Virus record (IMG/VR): IMGVR_UViG_3300031787_000784
Coordinates: 1-24,831 of that record
Length of the DNA stretch: 24,831 bases
Strand: one strand, 5' to 3'
From: a virus
Made by a program: the position numbers and the translations under genes. This document shows positions 8,149-21,986 of this stretch, one piece after another; position 1 is the stretch's first letter; the number at the start of each line of letters is the position of its first letter. The notes under the pieces were generated by a model, which saw only the letters and a program-made list of their open reading frames with translations, had not been told where the DNA came from and did not search any database.

Positions 8149-9407
8149 GCAATCCTTACAAAAAGTCCAACTGGATAATACTGACCGTAGCCAGCGCTGT
8201 AATACGCAAAAGTCATTAATCGCCAAGTCCCACTTAGTCCTAGATTTGTATCAGCAAAACTACTTGCCATCGTAGTCCCGTTTCCATACCCGTTAAAGCC
8301 ACCGCCAAACCACATATTTAACGCTACGTTATTTGCACCAGACCCAGAACCACCACCTTGGTTACCAGATGATCTGGTTAGAGTGCTTCCAGCAACCGTC
8401 GTACCGGCGCTATAGGTGGTAGACACCGTATTAAAATCGGTTGATCCAGCAATTACATATGAGCCAATATCACCATAGCCCGTCATACTAACAGCGCCAG
8501 TCAAACCATTAACTGAAGTTACCCCACCATTGGCAGCGGTTGTTGAGTTAGTGGCAAACCCTGCGTTGGTGGCAGACCCTGCGGAAGTGGCAAAAGTTGC
8601 ATTGGTGGCGGACCCCGCACTGGTCGCAAACCCCGCGTTAGTAGCAGCCCCGGCATTGGTGGCAGACCCTGCGGAGGTGGCAAAAGTTGCATTTGTTGCG
8701 GAAGACGCTAGTGTTGCAAGCGTAGCCAGCGTAGCTGTAGTGGCCAAAGTGGCAGTAGTAGCTAAAGTGGCCAAAGTGGCGGTAGTAGCCAGAGTTGCAT
8801 TTGTGGCGCTGGCTGCGCTGCCTGAGACGTTAATACCCCAAGTACCTGACGCCCCGGTTCCAGTAGGAGAAGGTACGTTTGTACCAATGACCAAACCTAA
8901 ATTTGTTCTTGCTCCTGCCGCAGTGGTTGCGCCTGTACCACCATTGACAACCGCCAAAGTACCAGTCAGGTTTGCGGCTTGCAGTTCATAGAAGTTGGTC
9001 GCATCAGACCAGACCATGACTTTGGAGCCGTCGGTGACCGTGACCCCTGTTCCCGCTGCTGTGGTGTTGCCAATCACAGACGAGTTGTAGATGGTCATTG
9101 AATAACCACTGTTGTTCCAAACGATGTACGCTTTGGAGGCAGGGGGTGCATAGACAGCGAAGGCAGCACCAGTCGTGGTGGTGAACCGCAACATGGCATA
9201 CACAGCTTGGTTGCTTGCTGCTGTGGACGTTGGGCCGTTTGTGTATGTCAGGGCTTGGCTGGCAGAAGTCACGCTGACCGTCTGATACCCACTGACAGCG
9301 GTATCTAGGATATACGCCAAATTGTTGTTGGTCGTGTCTCCCCAAACACCCGCCTGGGTGCCGCTAGTCGGCAGTTCAATCCGAAGATTTGAGGAATATG
9401 TGCTCAT
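8145..9407 (-). CDS. Tail fibre protein with A/T/N-rich tandem repeats
   Basis: 420 aa. The N-terminus (STYSSNLRIELPTSGTQAGV, then WGDTTNNNL) matches the start common to phage fibre proteins that attach to a virion. Residues about 75-140 are a beta-rich domain. Residues 147-170 contain LAVVNGGTGATTAAGARTNL, a frequent fibre motif. Residues 196-288 are short repeats of SATNATFATSAG and ATLATTATL type, expected to form a repetitive trimeric stalk. The Gly/Tyr-rich C-terminus (about 340-420) should be the receptor-facing tip. ATG overlaps the preceding gene by four bases. Confidence 0.85.
   Translation of the reverse strand: MSTYSSNLRIELPTSGTQAGVWGDTTNNNLAYILDTAVSGYQTVSVTSASQALTYTNGPTSTAASNQAVYAMLRFTTTTGAAFAVYAPPASKAYIVWNNSGYSMTIYNSSVIGNTTAAGTGVTVTDGSKVMVWSDATNFYELQAANLTGTLAVVNGGTGATTAAGARTNLGLVIGTNVPSPTGTGASGTWGINVSGSAASATNATLATTATLATLATTATLATTATLATLATLASSATNATFATSAGSATNAGAATNAGFATSAGSATNATFATSAGSATNAGFATNSTTAANGGVTSVNGLTGAVSMTGYGDIGSYVIAGSTDFNTVSTTYSAGTTVAGSTLTRSSGNQGGGSGSGANNVALNMWFGGGFNGYGNGTTMASSFADTNLGLSGTWRLMTFAYYSAGYGQYYPVGLFVRIA
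8544..8822 (-). repeat. In-frame tandem repeats in fibre stalk
   Basis: Codes for residues 196-288 of the fibre. Short Ala/Thr/Asn/Ser units of 4 to 7 residues recur. At DNA level, bases 8566-8603 and 8656-8693 form a 38-base direct repeat with one mismatch, spaced by exactly 90 bases (30 codons). All repeats preserve the reading frame, so unit gain or loss would change stalk length without frameshift. Confidence 0.85.
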
Positions 9408-15131: not shown

Positions 15132-15859
15132 TACACAACCCCAGTATTCTGTGGCAGTGCGGGTGTGCGGTACTGCCCACTGCGGTACGCATCACTGCGC
15201 TCAAGCCCATCGCCCAAACGTTTGGCCAATGCAAGAGCTTCCATGTACTTTTGGTTGTAGCCAGTGATGATGTCCACTTCACCCTTCATGAAGGTGTACG
15301 CCTCAACCAAAGAACCGTACAGCAACACGCTGTCAAAGTTGTCACCAAGCCATGTTTGGCCAGAAGCCGCCGTGGTGATGGAAGTGGGGTAATAGTAGTA
15401 ATGCAACTCAACGGAGTACACCGCATCTGGCGTGGGGCCAAGAATGAACGACAACTCGTTGGTAATTACAGGAGACGCATCGTTTGAGGTCGTTGGGCCA
15501 AACAGCGCGTAGTACTTGGGCGTTGCTGTATCGGTGGCTTTGGGATACGCCTGACGGATGAAGTTCACATCTTTGTTGAGCAAGAACTCTTGCCCATCAA
15601 CAGTCTCAACCGCCAATGAAAATGTGGAAAGAAAGTCGCCGGGGCACGACAAGTACTTGTTGCCCGTAGACGTTACCCCCGTTACGTTTTTTCGCAGCGA
15701 GGGGAACTGAACCGAGTTGTATATACGTTGTTCAGCCTGCGTGATGAAAGTATTGATCTGTGTCGTGGCAGACACAGTACTCCCACTCGCAAGGTATACA
15801 TCCGGAAACTGATTCTCGGTGTACGACTGAATTGTGTTGTACAACTCGGTGTAGTTCAT
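15131..15859 (-). CDS. Head-to-tail adaptor, SU10-adaptor type
   Basis: 242 aa. Helical N-terminus (MNYTELYNTIQSYTENQFPD, then FITQAEQRIYNSVQFPSLRK), a central beta part with LSCPGDFLSTFSLAV and YYALFGPTT, and a helical C-terminus with LLYGSLVEAYTFMKGEVDII and YMEALALAKRLGDGLERSDA. This helix-beta-helix pattern with a conserved SLVEAY..MKGE helix fits podovirus adaptor proteins (T7 gp11 / phage SU10 adaptor group), which form a 12-fold ring below the portal. Start overlaps the preceding gene as ATGA. The second adaptor-like gene in the window. Confidence 0.8.
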   Translation of the reverse strand: MNYTELYNTIQSYTENQFPDVYLASGSTVSATTQINTFITQAEQRIYNSVQFPSLRKNVTGVTSTGNKYLSCPGDFLSTFSLAVETVDGQEFLLNKDVNFIRQAYPKATDTATPKYYALFGPTTSNDASPVITNELSFILGPTPDAVYSVELHYYYYPTSITTAASGQTWLGDNFDSVLLYGSLVEAYTFMKGEVDIITGYNQKYMEALALAKRLGDGLERSDAYRSGQYRTPALPQNTGVV

Positions 15860-16056
15860 GCCATTGGGCCTCTGGCCATCAAGCCTTTAGTAGCCGCGCC
15901 AGTACCACGGATTTTGATGCCGCTGGTCTTGGTGGGGGGATAGTCTTGGCTGCGCGTGTTGGCCACAGACACGTTTGCTTTACGCATCGTCTCTTTTGCT
16001 GGCTCTTCGCCAACAACCACAGTGGCCACTTTTTTGGGTACCTTGTATGTTGCCAT
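15856..16056 (-). CDS. Small basic protein, conserved C-terminal GTGAATKG / ARGPMA
   Basis: 66 aa from ATG 16056, which has GGAGG five bases upstream; a GTG twelve bases further upstream is less likely. N-terminus MATYKVPKKVATVVVGEEPA, C-terminus KIRGTGAATKGLMARGPMA. Basic and small. The end resembles the recurrent tag of the 18106-20258 block only loosely (RG-x-GAATKG against RADGIATKG). I recall short phage proteins ending in ARGPMA near adaptor genes. Overlaps the adaptor by four bases and follows the 58-aa gene after one base. Function unknown; perhaps a minor virion component. Confidence 0.75.
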   Translation of the reverse strand: MATYKVPKKVATVVVGEEPAKETMRKANVSVANTRSQDYPPTKTSGIKIRGTGAATKGLMARGPMA

Positions 16057-16057
16057 A

Positions 16058-16234
16058 TCAGCCTCCACGACCAGGGCTACGCTGGTTCATTACTTTGGCC
16101 ATATTACGCCCATACTTAAGCATCTGGGAGTTGGTCTTGCCACCAGCAGCCATCTTTTTTGCACTGGGGTGCAGGCGTTTTTCATGCGCCATGACTTCCT
16201 TGTCGGCAATTTTCTTCACTGTCTTCGTGTCCAT
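16058..16234 (-). CDS. Very small basic protein (58 aa)
   Basis: 58 aa, ATG 16234 with AAGGAG five bases upstream. The sequence is basic and helical: KTVKKIADKEVMAHEKRLHP, then KKMAAGGKTNSQMLKYGRNM and a Gly/Arg end. It fills the gap between the zinc-ribbon gene and the 66-aa gene with normal spacing, and its stop is two bases before the next start. From memory similar proteins (VKAHE..MH, then a K-YGRN helix) recur in aquatic phages. Probably packaged with DNA or bound to the virion; unproven. Confidence 0.75.
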   Translation of the reverse strand: MDTKTVKKIADKEVMAHEKRLHPSAKKMAAGGKTNSQMLKYGRNMAKVMNQRSPGRGG

Positions 16235-16243
16235 TTCGACTCC

Positions 16244-16672
16244 TTATGTCGTTGATACCGATACTGTACCCAATTGCACGCTCAAAACCAAGTTATTTGG
16301 TGTGAGGGCCGCGTCAAAAAATGATGATCCCCCCACAGGGCTCCACCCCCACTGAAAGATTCGGCTACCCGCTTCCACAGTTCCCGTGCCCGTAGGCCCA
16401 GTCCCACCGTTCACATTGATCTGCAACCCGCTTGTCCCTGACAGCACATAGCTCCGATCAGGACGGGGATTACGCAAACCCTGTGGGTCGTCTACTGGAA
16501 ACTCGCCCAAGTGCAATTGTGGCTGATCTGGGTCCCAACACTCCGGGCAAACCAAGAGGTCGTAGTTACGACCCTTGATGACTTCACGCTTCAAGATTGA
16601 AAGCTTAAAACGCTGGTCACAGCGATCACACTGGGAGATCGCATTTTTGCCAGAAGCAAACCTATTCCCCAT
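16244..16672 (-). CDS. Zinc-ribbon phage protein
   Basis: 142 aa from ATG 16672, which shares one base with the stop of the adaptor (TAATG). Two Cys pairs, C15-x2-C18 and C42-x2-C45 (SQCDRCDQRF and LVCPECWDP), form a probable zinc ribbon separated by about 23 residues. Then comes EFPVDDPQGLRNPRPDRSY and a Gly/Ser/Thr-rich beta tail (about 85-142). Placement between the tail-tubular-like gene and two tiny genes suggests a virion-assembly or neck protein, not a transcription factor. An in-frame start at 16753 lies deep inside the upstream gene and is rejected. Confidence 0.8.
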   Translation of the reverse strand: MGNRFASGKNAISQCDRCDQRFKLSILKREVIKGRNYDLLVCPECWDPDQPQLHLGEFPVDDPQGLRNPRPDRSYVLSGTSGLQINVNGGTGPTGTGTVEAGSRIFQWGWSPVGGSSFFDAALTPNNLVLSVQLGTVSVSTT

Positions 16673-17601
16673 TAAGTTCCACCAATGAACTGCTGACGAG
16701 GCACAAAGCGAACAGACGCTTTCTCTTGGTCTTCGCCAGCCGCTATCTGCCAAGCTTCGTCATACTGAGACTTCAGCATGGGAATACGCTCAAAACCAGA
16801 AGGAATCTTGCCAGCAATGTAGTAGGACAAGCCCGCCGCCATACAGGGAATGAACCTGAACGGCACGTCCATAACGTTGACACCGCCACCCGCATCTTGG
16901 GTACGGCGCAGTCTCCAGTACACAAACTGATACGTCTGGGCATTGTCGGGAGTCGGCCAAACTGTGACTGCCGGGACTTGCGCCCAGTACACAATCGCCC
17001 CAGCAGTGTGAGCCGCCGCAGTGGTATTTTGTTGGCCACGAAAGCAGCTATACAGGGTATTGCCTGTTATGTATCCGTAGTTGATGATCTCGTTGTCGAT
17101 CTTGATGAACCCAGATGCGGGTAAACCCGTAGCATTGCTTAACACAATCTCAGTAGACGACGAAGTAATTGTGGTGCTCAGAGTTGCGCTCACGGGCGAG
17201 TTCTGGCCATTAAACCGCTGCACCCACACTTGAATTGGGCGAGCTTGTTGAATCTTGTTAGGGATCGTAGCGTAAGTAGAAACACTGATACGGGTGATGG
17301 TCAGGTCGGCTTGCGTTGCCGCCACGTTCCCACCCGTGCGAATCACATGCTCCAGCAGATCAATGGTGTCGTCTGGCAGTGCGTAGGTGTTTTGCCCTTG
17401 AACCAAGTCAATGATGCCCGGCTCGAACGTCCACATATTGATGCCGCGACTGGCCCAATCTGCAAACATGATGTTGAGGCTACGCCGCGCTGTACGCAGG
17501 TCGTAACCCGTGCGCAACTCCGAACCAGCACGCTCGTAGGCTTCCTCGACCAACTCTGTCAGGTCAAGGTTGAATGTTGTTGCGCCAGATGTGACTGCCA
17601 T
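16672..17601 (-). CDS. Tail tubular protein A-like adaptor with inserted beta-domain
   Basis: 309 aa. N-terminal helices LVEEAYERAGSELRTGYDL and RTARRSLNIMFADWASRGIN, followed by MWTFE and ALPDDTIDLLEHVIR, then a C-terminal pair DVPFRFIPCMAAGLSYYIAG and IPMLKSQYDEAWQIAAGEDQ. This fits the T7 gp11-like tubular A / adaptor class (ARR.LN...W..RG..W.F). Residues about 143-206 are an inserted domain (TEIVLSNATGLPASGFIKID, then a Cys-Phe-Arg-Gly and a TAAAH motif) also found twice in the hub protein. Shares its first base with the previous stop (TAATG). Confidence 0.75.
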   Translation of the reverse strand: MAVTSGATTFNLDLTELVEEAYERAGSELRTGYDLRTARRSLNIMFADWASRGINMWTFEPGIIDLVQGQNTYALPDDTIDLLEHVIRTGGNVAATQADLTITRISVSTYATIPNKIQQARPIQVWVQRFNGQNSPVSATLSTTITSSSTEIVLSNATGLPASGFIKIDNEIINYGYITGNTLYSCFRGQQNTTAAAHTAGAIVYWAQVPAVTVWPTPDNAQTYQFVYWRLRRTQDAGGGVNVMDVPFRFIPCMAAGLSYYIAGKIPSGFERIPMLKSQYDEAWQIAAGEDQEKASVRFVPRQQFIGGT

Positions 17602-17834: not shown

Positions 17835-18109
17835 TCTCTGTACCCCCCGCCTTTTGCCTTGTACCGTTTGGCCAGCAACTGCGCTTTTCTGGCTGACCAC
17901 TGACCTGCCGCCGTACCCTGCGTTGCTGAATTCTTGATGGAATTGAACAGCGACTTACGCATACCCGGTTTGGTGTAGTTGCCAGCAGCATTCACGCCGC
18001 CGCCCTCTTTGTACATGTCCACATCGTCAGGATTATCCGTGCGATGGATGACCTTCTTGGTCGGCATCTTCCTGGGGTTGATTGCCCCCATCCCACGGCT
18101 TGCCATCAT
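17831..18109 (-). CDS. Small basic protein, GNYTKPGMRK / GQWSARKAQLLAK family
   Basis: 92 aa, overlapping the previous gene as ATGA. Two ATGs are adjacent (18109 and 18106). Landmarks are NPRKMPTKKVIHRTDNPDD, then GNYTKPGMRKSLFNSIK and GQWSARKAQLLAKRYKAKG, ending GGGYRD. The GQWSARKAQ..A..YK..GGGY end is a recurring module that I recall from phage and giant-virus proteins of unknown function. Strongly basic. It may share a functional context with the neighbouring 77-aa protein, since both motifs occur side by side here. Confidence 0.75.
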   Translation of the reverse strand: MMASRGMGAINPRKMPTKKVIHRTDNPDDVDMYKEGGGVNAAGNYTKPGMRKSLFNSIKNSATQGTAAGQWSARKAQLLAKRYKAKGGGYRD

Positions 18110-18510
18110 TTGATGATCGTCCCACGGGTCTTACCCCGCTGAGCACAGCCATCAGCACGAGAGGAAGCAGTACCACCCTTGGCGTACTTTTGATCCGGGG
18201 TTTCCTTGGTGTACTTCTCATCGTCTGAAATAACTTTGGCGGCTTCCCGCGCTCTGTCAGTACCAGACTTCTCTACCCCTCGGGTTTCGCGCTTCATCTC
18301 AGCGGCAGCCTCCCGCTTCTTTCCAGCAGCGGCTTCACGTTCTTTTGCCAACTCGTTGGCCTTATAGGCAACACCAATAGGAGTGGCTGCTACCCCGGCA
18401 GCACCAGCGGCACCAATAGCATTTCCAATTTTGCTGGCAATACCACTCCCACCCCCGCCACCGCCCTCAAGCGGTTGGTTGTCCATGCCATGTCTTGTAA
18501 AGCGCCCCAT
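18106..18510 (-). CDS. Basic helical protein carrying the RADGxAxRGKTRG C-terminal tag
   Basis: 134 aa, ATG with AGGTGA upstream. N-terminus has a Gly-rich run (GGGGGGSG, about 17-24), a small hydrophobic Ala/Gly part (about 26-50), then a long Lys/Glu/Ala/Arg helix (about 50-100, KREAAAEMKRETRGVEKSG). The last residues are SSRADGCAQRGKTRGTIIK, the same signature found at the ends of the 18519 and 19935 genes and near the end of the 19200 gene. Function unknown; possibly a virion-associated or DNA-packaged protein. Confidence 0.75.
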   Translation of the reverse strand: MGRFTRHGMDNQPLEGGGGGGSGIASKIGNAIGAAGAAGVAATPIGVAYKANELAKEREAAAGKKREAAAEMKRETRGVEKSGTDRAREAAKVISDDEKYTKETPDQKYAKGGTASSRADGCAQRGKTRGTIIK

Positions 18511-18518
18511 GATTCACC

Positions 18519-19187
18519 TCAATAGATTTTGTACTTGGTCTTGCCGCGAGTGGCAATACCGTCAGCACGTTTAGAAGCCGAAGACATGCCACCACTGGCC
18601 ATCTTTTTGGTCTTGACTGCGCCGCCTTTTTTGTACTGCCTATTGCGAGACATGATATTCCCGTTGACATCTACATACCCTATGCCGGGAACAAATTTAC
18701 CAATGGTTGCATCCGGATCAGCAGAATACTTTTGTTCAGCGGCAGAAGGGCGAGCGGCGGCTCGGGCGGGAGCTTGGGCTTGCGGGGTACGACGAGGAAC
18801 GTAGTTCTTCATTCCTTCTTCTGAAGAGGACACTGTACTGGCAGGCGGTTTGCGGCGAGGAACGTAGTTCTTCATTCCTTCTTCCCGACTCACAATGTTG
18901 GGGCGGGCAGGGGCCGCAGCAACAGAACGAGTAGGAGCGGCACGAGCGGGTGCAGGCGCGGAATCCCCACCGGGCTCCTTCGTGTACATACCGGGCTCGA
19001 AGTCAGGGTTGTCTAAAGCTGCCATACGCGCCATCTCGGCGTTGCCACGGGCGTCCTCGGGGGAAACTGCGCCAGCGCCCATAGCCGCATCGGGGTCAAC
19101 CCCGGTGGTTTCTTTGCCTTTTTTGTTGGCCATGTAGGCCAACCCAGCGAGGGCTGCAAGCCCAGCTAAATCTCGTCCTCGTGCCAT
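18519..19187 (-). CDS. Ala/Pro-rich protein with EEGMKNYVPRR duplication and C-terminal tag
   Basis: 222 aa, ATG with AAAGGAG six bases upstream. A hydrophobic Ala/Leu helix at 5-20 (RDLAGLAALAGLAYMANKKG) is followed by a Pro/Ala linker. EEGMKNYVPRR then appears twice, 21 residues apart, before a short folded-looking part GKFVPGIGYVDVNGNIMSRN. The end is KRADGIATRGKTKYKIY, the shared tag. The early helix might insert in a membrane. Function unknown; the duplicated peptide could be a binding site for the same partner used twice. Confidence 0.75.
   Translation of the reverse strand: MARGRDLAGLAALAGLAYMANKKGKETTGVDPDAAMGAGAVSPEDARGNAEMARMAALDNPDFEPGMYTKEPGGDSAPAPARAAPTRSVAAAPARPNIVSREEGMKNYVPRRKPPASTVSSSEEGMKNYVPRRTPQAQAPARAAARPSAAEQKYSADPDATIGKFVPGIGYVDVNGNIMSRNRQYKKGGAVKTKKMASGGMSSASKRADGIATRGKTKYKIY
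18793..18884 (-). repeat. 29-base perfect direct repeat
   Basis: Bases 18793-18821 and 18856-18884 are identical over 29 bases, spaced by 63 bases (21 codons), and encode the duplicated EEGMKNYVPRR peptide. Identity at DNA level means the duplication is recent or kept homogeneous. Confidence 0.9.
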
Positions 19188-19199
19188 GTCAGGCTCCTT

Positions 19200-19700
19200 T
19201 TAGGCTTTGCCGCCCTTTTTCATACCCAGAGGTTTGCTGCCAGCCATTTTGACTTGAGTGCCTTTGGTCTTACCCTTGGCAGCAAGTCCGTCCACACTGG
19301 GAGCGGCGGTTCTAACAGAACCCATTTTTGAAGCGGCGATGCCACCAGAGGCCATCTTCTTCATGCCACCTTTTTTCATGCCCATCATCTCGGCCTTCTC
19401 ATGTTTCATCATGGAAGCAGGAGCGCCCTTCTTTTTCATGAAGGCCATCTCTTTACCGACCATTGCTTTAGATTCTTTCATTTCGCCACCTTTGTTAAAA
19501 AGTTCAGTTTTGCCCTGATTGGTTTTGGGCTTGTTCACACCTTGCAAATCAGCACGGGTACCCGCGCCAAACTTCTTGCCTTTGTCAGCAGCGGCAAAAT
19601 CTTGCCCCACGCTTTTAGGGACCCCAACCTTCTTGGCAAACGCTGGATTGTTGGCCACCGCCGCCATGAAGTTATGTTGTTTCTTGCTAACTGAGGGCAC
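19200..19700 (-). CDS. Lys/Met/Gly-rich basic protein with N-terminal SKKQHNF module
   Basis: 166 aa from GTG 19700, supported by AAGGAG seven bases upstream; no ATG lies nearby. N-terminus PSVSKKQHNFMAAVANNPAF and DFAAADKGKKFG form a recognisable small module that I recall from many phages. Then a Lys/Gly region (GGEMKESKAMVGKEMAFMKK, KAEMMGMKKGGMKKMASGG), Met-rich and basic. The tag appears as VDGLAAKGKTKG but is internal, followed by 19 more residues. Overlaps the previous gene by 14 bases. Probably a DNA-binding or packaged virion protein; unproven. Confidence 0.75.
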   Translation of the reverse strand: MPSVSKKQHNFMAAVANNPAFAKKVGVPKSVGQDFAAADKGKKFGAGTRADLQGVNKPKTNQGKTELFNKGGEMKESKAMVGKEMAFMKKKGAPASMMKHEKAEMMGMKKGGMKKMASGGIAASKMGSVRTAAPSVDGLAAKGKTKGTQVKMAGSKPLGMKKGGKA

Positions 19701-19935
19701 TTCGTTGCTCCTTCATGAACATGTCGATCTTGGTTTCTAGCCTGTCCAACCTGTCCATGATTCGATTGATATCTGTGTGCAAGTCTATCTTGGTCACGTA
19801 CTCTTTGGGCATTTCTTCTCGGGTCTTGTTAATCAAAATCTGAAGGCGTTTGATCTCATCGGACTTCTCTTTCAGATTCCAACCAATTAGCCCCAGAAAG
19901 GCCGTCAAAATAGCGTTCCAAACAGCCATCTCCAT
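19687..19935 (-). CDS. Small membrane-anchored coiled-coil protein
   Basis: 82 aa. One hydrophobic N-terminal helix (about 3-20, MAVWNAILTAFLGLIGWNL) followed by a charged helical region with heptad spacing (DEIKRLQILINKTREEMPKE, then DINRIMDRLDRLETKIDMFM). It resembles small XhlA-like haemolysin/holin-accessory proteins in architecture, but similarity is only in layout. It lies among basic tag proteins, far from the lysis genes, so a structural role is equally possible. The ATG overlaps the previous stop. Confidence 0.7.
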   Translation of the reverse strand: MEMAVWNAILTAFLGLIGWNLKEKSDEIKRLQILINKTREEMPKEYVTKIDLHTDINRIMDRLDRLETKIDMFMKEQRSALS

Positions 19936-20258
19936 CAGACAAACCTACCCTTAGTTTTGCCTTTGGTGGCGATGCCATCTGCTGAGTTCACATACCCACC
20001 CTCGGCGCAATTCCAAGCCCGTAGGCTCTTGTTAATCCGACTGTTTGGGTCGTTGGCTGTCTTCTCGGATGTGAGTTTTTTCTTCATCCCAGTCATCCTT
20101 GCACAGAAAGAGTCGCGCCTGCTGCCGCCCTTGGGCTGCGGGGCTTTTAACCCCGGCTTGCCCGGATTGGCTGCGTTGTAGGAAGCCCGTCCCTTGGCGT
20201 TCAAGCCGCCCTTCTCGGATTTGCCTTCCTTGCGTTGCCATGCAGGTGACTTAGCCAT
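19935..20258 (-). CDS. Basic protein, KSPAWQRKEGKS family, with C-terminal tag
   Basis: 107 aa from ATG 20258, overlapping the previous gene by eight bases; a TTG six bases upstream is possible. Landmarks: AKSPAWQRKEGKSEKGGLNA, SYNAANPGKPGLKAPQPKGG, FCARMTGMKKKLTSEKTAND and NSRINKSLRAWNC. I recall this combination as a conserved domain of unknown function in many aquatic phages. The end is SADGIATKGKTKGRFV, the first and clearest copy of the shared tag. High Lys/Arg. Function unknown. Confidence 0.8.
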   Translation of the reverse strand: MAKSPAWQRKEGKSEKGGLNAKGRASYNAANPGKPGLKAPQPKGGSRRDSFCARMTGMKKKLTSEKTANDPNSRINKSLRAWNCAEGGYVNSADGIATKGKTKGRFV

Positions 20259-20582: not shown

Positions 20583-20891
20583 TTAACTCAGAGCAGCGCC
20601 AACAGCGGTAACCCAGGCAGAGCCAGTAGAGATCACAAGGCAGTACTCGTTGTTGCCTGCGCCGTTGTCGCTAATCAAGCGAACTTGACCAGCATTGGAA
20701 GCGGCTGCGGTAGGCAAAGCGGCAGTCAAAATGGCGGGCAGATCAACAAAAGAAGAGACCGTAACGCTGGCCACCGAGGTGGCAGTGCCAAAGGTTGCAT
20801 CAACAGTTACAGCGCCCGTGGTGCCGTTTACAGTGATAGACTGGAAGCCGTTTTGCGAGCGAACTGGGCCGCTAAAAGTCGTGTTTGACAT
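20583..20891 (-). CDS. Small phage structural protein (first gene after promoter region)
   Basis: 102 aa, ATG with AAGGA eight to nine bases upstream. Begins SNTTFSGPVRSQNGFQSITV, then TGAVTVDATFGTATSVASV, and ends with GNNEYCLVISTGSAWVTAVG. The FSGPVRSxNGF start and ISxGxxW end recur in phage virion proteins, sometimes annotated as decoration or head fibre. It is the first gene after the capsid terminator and probable promoter, so likely made in quantity. Confidence 0.75.
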   Translation of the reverse strand: MSNTTFSGPVRSQNGFQSITVNGTTGAVTVDATFGTATSVASVTVSSFVDLPAILTAALPTAAASNAGQVRLISDNGAGNNEYCLVISTGSAWVTAVGAALS

Positions 20892-21074: not shown

Positions 21075-21986
21075 TCAGGTTGAACCTGAAGAACCCCACA
21101 TACCGAGGGGATCAGACCAGCCGAAGCTGTAACGCTCACGGGCCTTGTAGCGGACGTTGCCAGTGTCGAAATCACCGTCCATGCTGTTCTGCAAGGGGGT
21201 GCGGACAAAGTGCTTCATACCGTTAGGCACGTCAGTGGTCAAGTACCAGCCATTGGTGTCAGTCAAGAAGTGATTGACACAGTAGCCTTCAGGGATTGCA
21301 CCCATCTGCTTGATAGCGTTGATATCGTTATCAGCAGTAGAGACCCGCAGTTCGGTGTCCAGCAAACGCTTGGCCACGAACATCAGGGCAGGGGGAACAA
21401 CCATCTTCTTGGGCTTGGCTGCGATCAACAAACCACGCTCGTCCGTCCAAGCGGCGATCTGAATAACGGCGGCTTCCAAAGAAGTCTCGTTCAAATCAGC
21501 TTGAGTGGAGGGAGTGTTGCTGTTGACACCACCGGAGATCAAGGGGTGGCTGGCATTGAACAGGGAAACGCCATCACCACCTGCGTAGGTGTTGGAGAAA
21601 CCGTTGTTAATGACCGAAGCAGCCTTGACTTGCTTGGTGTAAGCCATAGCGCGAGCCAAGGACTTGGTGTAGCGAGCAGACAAGCTGTCGTACAAGTTAT
21701 CTTCGACCGCTTCTTCAGTGATCGAGAAACCCAAGGCAATGGTTTCGTGCGTATAGCGGGTTGACCAAGCTTCCTGCGCATTGTCATAAGCAATTGCAGA
21801 GCCTTCGTTCTTCACCGGAGCGGCGGAGAATCCAGACAGTTTGGTCTCTTCTTCAAACGAACGCTCAGAGGTCTCAGTTTCGTAGATCTCTTTGTGTTCT
21901 TCGCCGTAACGAGAATACTCCATACCGAACAAAGCGTTCAGACCAGGGAGCAACTCTTTCAGCAGTTGTGCGCGTGAAATAGCCAT
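21075..21986 (-). CDS. Major capsid protein
   Basis: 303 aa, ATG with AAGGAG seven bases upstream. N-terminal LLKELLPGLNALFGMEYSRY, then EEHKEIYETETSERSFEEET, SITEEAVEDNLYDSLSARYT and a long central helix-like part; the C-terminus has VRYKARERYSFGWSDPLGMW. These recall Mu gpT-like / HK97-fold head proteins of aquatic phages. Position supports this: it follows co-chaperonin, scaffold and a capsid-associated gene and is followed by a strong terminator. The exact family was not checked. Confidence 0.88.
   Translation of the reverse strand: MAISRAQLLKELLPGLNALFGMEYSRYGEEHKEIYETETSERSFEEETKLSGFSAAPVKNEGSAIAYDNAQEAWSTRYTHETIALGFSITEEAVEDNLYDSLSARYTKSLARAMAYTKQVKAASVINNGFSNTYAGGDGVSLFNASHPLISGGVNSNTPSTQADLNETSLEAAVIQIAAWTDERGLLIAAKPKKMVVPPALMFVAKRLLDTELRVSTADNDINAIKQMGAIPEGYCVNHFLTDTNGWYLTTDVPNGMKHFVRTPLQNSMDGDFDTGNVRYKARERYSFGWSDPLGMWGSSGST

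Follow-up and report, generated by a model that had tools for sequence, protein, structure and literature searches.

The window analysed here, the whole 24,831-base virus record IMGVR_UViG_3300031787_000784 from IMG/VR, carries on its minus strand a head and tail module in which four small genes between positions 18106 and 20258 share a short peptide, hereafter the tag. The module runs from a GroES-like protein through three unassigned proteins, the major capsid protein and two small genes to the cassette of tagged genes, and from there to an adaptor-like protein and tail and lysis genes. As an earlier note on this DNA had reported, all four copies are in frame in their minus-strand genes, and three of them end within 3-4 residues of the stop codon (Table 1). 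A six-frame search of the window with the pattern DG.A..G.[TS] returned four matches, these same copies, and no others.

The earlier note also held that the remainders of the four proteins are unlike and that the DNA encoding the tags differs at synonymous positions, and both statements are borne out. When the tag and the 30 residues before it are removed, the four bodies (the proteins apart from the tag) fall in separate clusters, and over the six pairings of the four copies, 15 of the 49 same-residue pairs use the same codon.

Anatomy, enrichment and distribution of the tag

Two sets of loci were examined, neither of them exhaustive nor unbiased for distance. To obtain the tag-chosen set, IMG/VR was scanned for a degenerate DNA form of the tag, which gave at least 120 stretches; a regular expression at the protein level finds 1-6 tag copies in each of these loci and in the window. 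Because this set was selected by the tag itself, we took a tag-blind sample as well: the best 80 of 599 loci by capsid protein alone, plus the window, all of them close to the window's capsid protein. The tag-blind set contains 87 strict tags, all on the strand of the capsid gene, as against 0.05 expected from shuffling residues within the same open reading frames (ORFs). Exactly four residues follow T[KR] in 50 of its 86 tagged ORFs, where 0.8 would be expected. Thirty loci (29 of the 80 and the window) reach 4.5 kb or more past the capsid gene; 27 of these carry at least one strict tag and 18 at least two. Two of the three negative loci, L187 and L193, have looser forms of the tag (DGCASKVKTKGRIV, GGIESRGKTRGKYC and GGIESKGKTKG), and in the third, L143, the 4.8 kb up to the contig end is taken up by other genes, with no tag.

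Taken together, all loci give 313 distinct tagged proteins after identical sequences and ORFs without a stop are dropped, with the exact C-terminal spacing in 187. Their lengths, as cut by our script, are 15-394 residues (median 128), some being fragments at contig ends. The common form of the tag is S-A-S-x-R-[A/G]-D-G-[I/C]-A-x-[R/K]-G-K-T-[R/K]-G-[K/R]-hydrophobic-[V/C/I/L], often after a K-G-G stretch. In this form the search itself fixes DG, A, G and T[KR], and the DNA pattern behind the tag-chosen set also fixes other tag residues in one or more copies at every locus; conservation was counted on the 179 distinct C-terminal 36-mers that the 187 tags provide. Among positions that the search did not impose, numbered from the C-terminal end, alanine occurs at -19 in 134 of the 179, serine at -18 in 147 and arginine at -16 in 153 (lysine in 2), with a hydrophobic residue at -2 in 176 and V, C, I, L, Y, M or F as the end residue in 170. 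Lysine and arginine interchange freely at -9, -5 and -3. A profile of the tag recovers further variants, such as DGCCxKGKTRGKMV. Net charge is positive in 312 of the 313 tagged proteins (median +14), and in 243 of 282 once the tag region is stripped (median +7).

The tag is found in a consistent genomic position. Among 40 tag-bearing records hand-picked from 120, mostly for length, 33 encode a capsid protein that shares 75-95% identity with that of the window; seven have no capsid match, and one of these, L095, is a contig that begins at the gene after the capsid gene. Nineteen long records (41-87 kb), chosen in part by tag and in part by capsid gene, gave 27 matches in 17 records with a pattern that misses some tag variants, and none with the reversed control pattern. 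All but one of the matches (26/27) lie 1.5-5.7 kb downstream of the capsid gene, the distance in G047 being counted from the copy at the record's end; the 27th is on a record without a capsid match. The Planktothrix phage Pag-Yong1, a cultured relative with a capsid protein 72% identical to the window's, encodes one tagged protein, UMO75986.1, which ends DGCAKRGRTKGRFI and lies between the capsid and adaptor genes. The capsid proteins of the untagged cultured relatives are 39-64% identical (Manatee Spring phage, CRP-901, HTVC023P, DSL-LC04 and HTVC027P) or 20% identical (HTVC115P). Within this sampling, then, the tag goes with a single capsid lineage. The tagged phages are a tailed-phage group known almost only from environmental DNA.

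Bacterial genomes gave no match to an arginine-only pattern. The full pattern picked out nine bacterial contigs, of which three (L208, L210 and L216) have tags by the strict regular expression in ORFs of at least 84 residues; L211 has one in a 29-residue open segment, and five have no strict tag. The three are contigs of metagenome-assembled genomes, and our guess is that they are phage sequence binned with bacteria.

Table 1. Features of the tagged cassette and its neighbours in the window
Feature	Position	Strand	Description
Major capsid protein	21075-21986	-	Phage_capsid_4, phrog_371; tagged cassette downstream in relatives
Gene after capsid gene	20583-20891	-	Same place in phage DSL-LC04 annotated as cement protein (synteny only)
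Tagged protein 1, 107 residues	19935-20258	-	DUF6321 domain (PF19846, E 1e-18), linker AEGGYVNS, tag
Tag copy 1	19947-19982	-	ADGIATKGKTKG, then RFV and stop; in frame
Untagged gene within cassette, 82 residues	19687-19935	-	Best matches phrog_462, phrog_12220
Tagged protein 2, 166 residues	19200-19700	-	N-terminal 'SKKQHNFM' helical domain (phrog_16759)
Tag copy 2	19260-19295	-	VDGLAAKGKTKG, 19 residues after it; in frame
Tagged protein 3, 222 residues	18519-19187	-	Body has weak family matches at most
Tag copy 3	18531-18566	-	ADGIATRGKTKY, then KIY and stop; in frame
Tagged protein 4, 134 residues	18106-18510	-	Weak family matches at most
Tag copy 4	18121-18156	-	ADGCAQRGKTRG, then TIIK and stop; one residue beyond the common spacing
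Head-tail adaptor-like protein, beyond cassette	16672-17601	-	Relatives annotated 'adaptor protein', 'tail adaptor'

The second tagged protein is one of a large family whose members regularly have some 8-30 residues after the tag, and its GTG start is backed by homologues that start MPS. Its N-terminal SKKQHNFM domain also matches the N-terminus of phrog_22033 and phrog_25121, which are annotated as virion structural proteins. The domain (residues 1-43) is 79% identical to part of the phiKZ protein PHIKZ165.1 and matches 100 phage records, many of them jumbo phages. In L187, a protein at 8421-8804 has a SKKQHNFM-like start and a DUF6321-like end, as if two cassette proteins had been fused.

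Two further endings in the window were noticed. A small protein at 15856-16068 (minus strand), whose N-terminal part varies among relatives, has the conserved ending TSGIKIRGTGAATKGLMARGPMA, found as one copy per locus in all 72 loci where it occurs; this ending looks like the tag core (G-x-A-x-K-G) and is a possible sister signal. A putative sister tag of pelagiphages had 0 matches in viral_contigs, and a looser form of the sister tag, sought in seven cultured relatives, matched in three, two of them beside control matches, and was dropped. At 16058-16234 (minus strand), a small protein ends GRNMAKVMNQRSPGRGG; relatives with a similar ending start with the tag (MAYTRSADGIAKKGKTEGKNLGDSGP), and the window's copy has a different N-terminus from these.

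Many bodies and one peptide

Removing the tag and the 30 residues before it left too little body for clustering in 46 of the 313 proteins. The other 267 bodies group into 136 clusters when 40% coverage is required, into 166 at 60% and into 88 with no such cut, and the true number of families is uncertain because most clusters are singletons. At 40% coverage, every one of the 78 loci with two or more clustered bodies has them in different clusters, which is not what full-length homology within a duplicated gene family would give. We searched 135 of the 136 cluster representatives, leaving out the window's own singleton cluster. Against Pfam at E 0.01, the only matches were DUF6321 (one representative) and a marginal cell-wall-anchor profile (one, E 0.0007); against PHROGs, four representatives matched, the DUF6321 one and three of SKKQHNFM type. 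No Pfam or PHROGs profile covering the tag across bodies was found, and no family matched more than three of the 135; a weak match to phrog_38764 (E 0.0035) reaches into the start of one of the window's tags. The earlier note had looked to C-terminal enrichment and to association with different bodies as checks on its proposal. The enrichment is strong, the bodies are many and unrelated, and the tag is neither confined to one homologous family nor carried in the window by proteins homologous along their full length.

Codon use was compared in the 52 loci with at least two C-terminal tags. Same-residue codon identity is 0.456 within loci and 0.408 between them, where codon usage in the ORFs concerned predicts 0.366, and the corresponding identities of the tag residues are 0.76 and 0.69. 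The small within-locus codon excess may reflect some copying; the rest of the similarity among tags is, on these comparisons, maintenance of the peptide by selection.

The clearest view of how tag and body are combined comes from DUF6321, which is present in 108 distinct proteins, 13 tagged and 95 untagged; 93 of the untagged ones stop at, or no more than two residues from, a conserved W-x-C. In one relative, L121, the capsid protein is 100% identical to the window's and the DUF6321 domain has 82 of 84 residues in common with it. There the domain is untagged, and a separate 99-residue protein encoded after it ends in the tag. The two DNAs are alike up to the point where the DUF6321 core ends, and again from the tag's first codon onwards into the next gene; where L121 has 265 bases, the window has 25. 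The difference is an event, in one direction or the other, that placed the tag in frame on another protein. Since DUF6321 occurs both with and without the tag, and since the window and L121 have the tag on different bodies, tag and body are inherited apart. The earlier note had judged selection on the peptide likelier than recent duplication. Codon data, body clusters, C-terminal spacing, DUF6321 and the comparison with L121 together strongly support this, and with it the view that the tag is a real, selected peptide.

Possible roles of the tag and comparison with known systems

Because numerous basic proteins from the head region, otherwise unrelated, carry one conserved, transferable peptide, we lean, by a little, towards reading the tag as a transferable targeting peptide that marks an open and quickly changing set of small, mostly basic proteins for the head, where they would be packaged as internal cargo and probably ejected. 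As heads assemble, the exposed tag would be bound by a phage partner (the capsid protein, scaffold or portal). The cargo would ride in the virion and perhaps act in the early phase of infection, and the turnover of the bodies would follow from this. The match of the SKKQHNFM domain to annotated virion structural proteins also favours this reading. The part of the earlier note's interpretation that saw a selected tag stands, and the sorting or binding role that it proposed, towards the capsid, an assembly partner or DNA, fits the genomic position. In a predicted structure of the DUF6321 protein the tag is the least confident part (blocks of 31-37, as against 69-81 for the body), and the model of the SKKQHNFM protein is weak beyond its N-terminal helices, with 50-55 for the tag; both models were built on shallow alignments and have low overall confidence. 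A Foldseek search with the DUF6321 model gave a single match at E 3.4, which we took to be meaningless.

Several observations weigh against a targeting role. DUF6321 is mostly untagged, so that the tag is not needed for the role of that domain. Nor is a free C-terminal end essential, given the residues beyond the tag in the SKKQHNFM family and a family of 24 proteins of about 60 residues in which the tag is N-terminal. Six of the seven cultured relatives lack the tag, Pag-Yong1 being the one that has it. The read stretches of HTVC023P, HTVC027P, HTVC115P, CRP-901, DSL-LC04 and Manatee Spring phage contain no strict tag, and their whole records none at 0-1 mismatch; at 2 mismatches, CRP-901 has one match (control 0) and Manatee Spring phage four (control 2), but these matches do not look like tags. 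Bearing instead on the unlikeness of the four bodies, BLASTP of the four whole window proteins, run without low-complexity masking or composition correction, gives weak mutual E-values, down to 4e-7 (27% identity over 131 residues). Because these alignments span the tag and K/G/A-rich stretches, we do not take the scores as full-length homology.

Those scores, the common neighbourhood and similar composition of the four proteins and the small within-locus codon excess are what one would see if the proteins were old duplicates whose bodies had diverged past recognition while their ends stayed alike. Near-identical DUF6321 domains with and without the tag, and the in-frame tag on different bodies in two close relatives, make such an ancestry hard to credit. 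A signal for proteolysis, either a C-terminal degron for a host protease or a site for a head maturation protease, seems very improbable. C-terminal degrons lie at a fixed distance from the stop and have a hydrophobic C-terminal end, as the tag usually does, but it stands away from the C-terminal end in the SKKQHNFM family and in the 24 small proteins that have it at the N-terminus.

The tag might also be a nucleic-acid-binding tail that helps basic proteins to coat or condense the packaged DNA, a role suggested by the near-universal positive charge and by the free exchange of lysine and arginine at three positions. We regard it as quite improbable: alanine at -19, serine at -18, the hydrophobic residue at -2 and the end residue are conserved and not basic, and arginine is strongly preferred to lysine at -16, none of which bulk charge requires. 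The spacing G-x-x-x-x-G-K-T is, we presume, P-loop-like, and might hold phosphates. Docking onto a partner outside the head, without packaging, is in our view unlikely, if less so. The partner would be a phage or host factor in the infected cell, for example a hub for takeover or anti-defence. This would suit a tag that is separable from its body and, in the manner of disordered peptides, modelled at low confidence. It would also suit bodies that vary greatly, with a strong Pfam match in one of 135 representatives (DUF6321) and a marginal one in another, as might be seen in host-interaction proteins. Against docking of this kind stand the placement of 26 of 27 matches downstream of the capsid gene and the single capsid lineage of 33 of the 40 tag-bearing records.

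If the tag is a targeting peptide for virion cargo, it would flag such cargo among phage proteins that have no recognizable domain and show what a phage delivers into its host, and it would offer a portable loading peptide. We also entertain, with a little less conviction, a broader picture: one phage lineage with a C-terminal 'loading code' that would stock its capsids with an open-ended, rapidly exchanged set of unrelated proteins delivered with the DNA, comprising on the order of 100 undescribed cargo families picked out by the tag alone. Such a code would be for tailed phages what cargo loading is for encapsulins. Even without a mechanism, a selected in-frame peptide on many unrelated phage proteins is unusual.

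The PDB was searched by sequence with a tag consensus, with two profiles and with both the capsid and the adaptor-like protein, and nothing matched; tblastn of a tag consensus against phage records gave one match (E 4, 52% identity). Among the open-licence PMC papers listed, judged mostly by titles, we found no description of the tag, and it is on this alone that we call it undescribed; no PMC paper on DUF6321 or Pag-Yong1 turned up, and excerpts of two roseophage papers (PMC10149686, PMC11288001) contain no virion proteomics of relatives. DUF6321 (PF19846) and phrog_16759, the bodies of two of the window's proteins, are families defined by the body and not by the tag.

The nearest parallels are other targeting peptides. 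According to excerpts on phage T4 (PMC9026906, PMC7697877), its internal proteins, which are small, unrelated and poorly conserved between relatives, share a short targeting sequence; in IPIII, the first 10 residues are enough to bring about incorporation into the head (PMC9026906). Like this capsid targeting sequence, the tag is a short peptide common to otherwise unrelated proteins of the head gene region. The T4 sequence, however, is N-terminal, is unrelated to the tag and is removed by the prohead protease, whereas the tag is mostly C-terminal (one spacing in 187 of 313, N-terminal in the one 24-protein family). The inner-head proteins of the giant phage SPN3US have long propeptides that the authors infer to target them into the head; in excerpts of PMC5694885, these are N-terminal, several exceed 100 residues, they are cut by the prohead protease, and no shared short peptide is seen. 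The cargo-loading peptides of encapsulins are described, in an excerpt of PMC7355545, as short, usually C-terminal and sufficient for loading into a shell that is related to HK97. They resemble the tag as modular C-terminal peptides on different proteins encoded near the shell gene. They differ in sequence, and encapsulins, as compartments of bacteria, take few types of cargo into each shell and are not phage heads filled with DNA. A targeting peptide would thus be of a known kind; the sequence of the tag, its C-terminal use in a tailed phage and the breadth of the bodies that carry it appear to be new.

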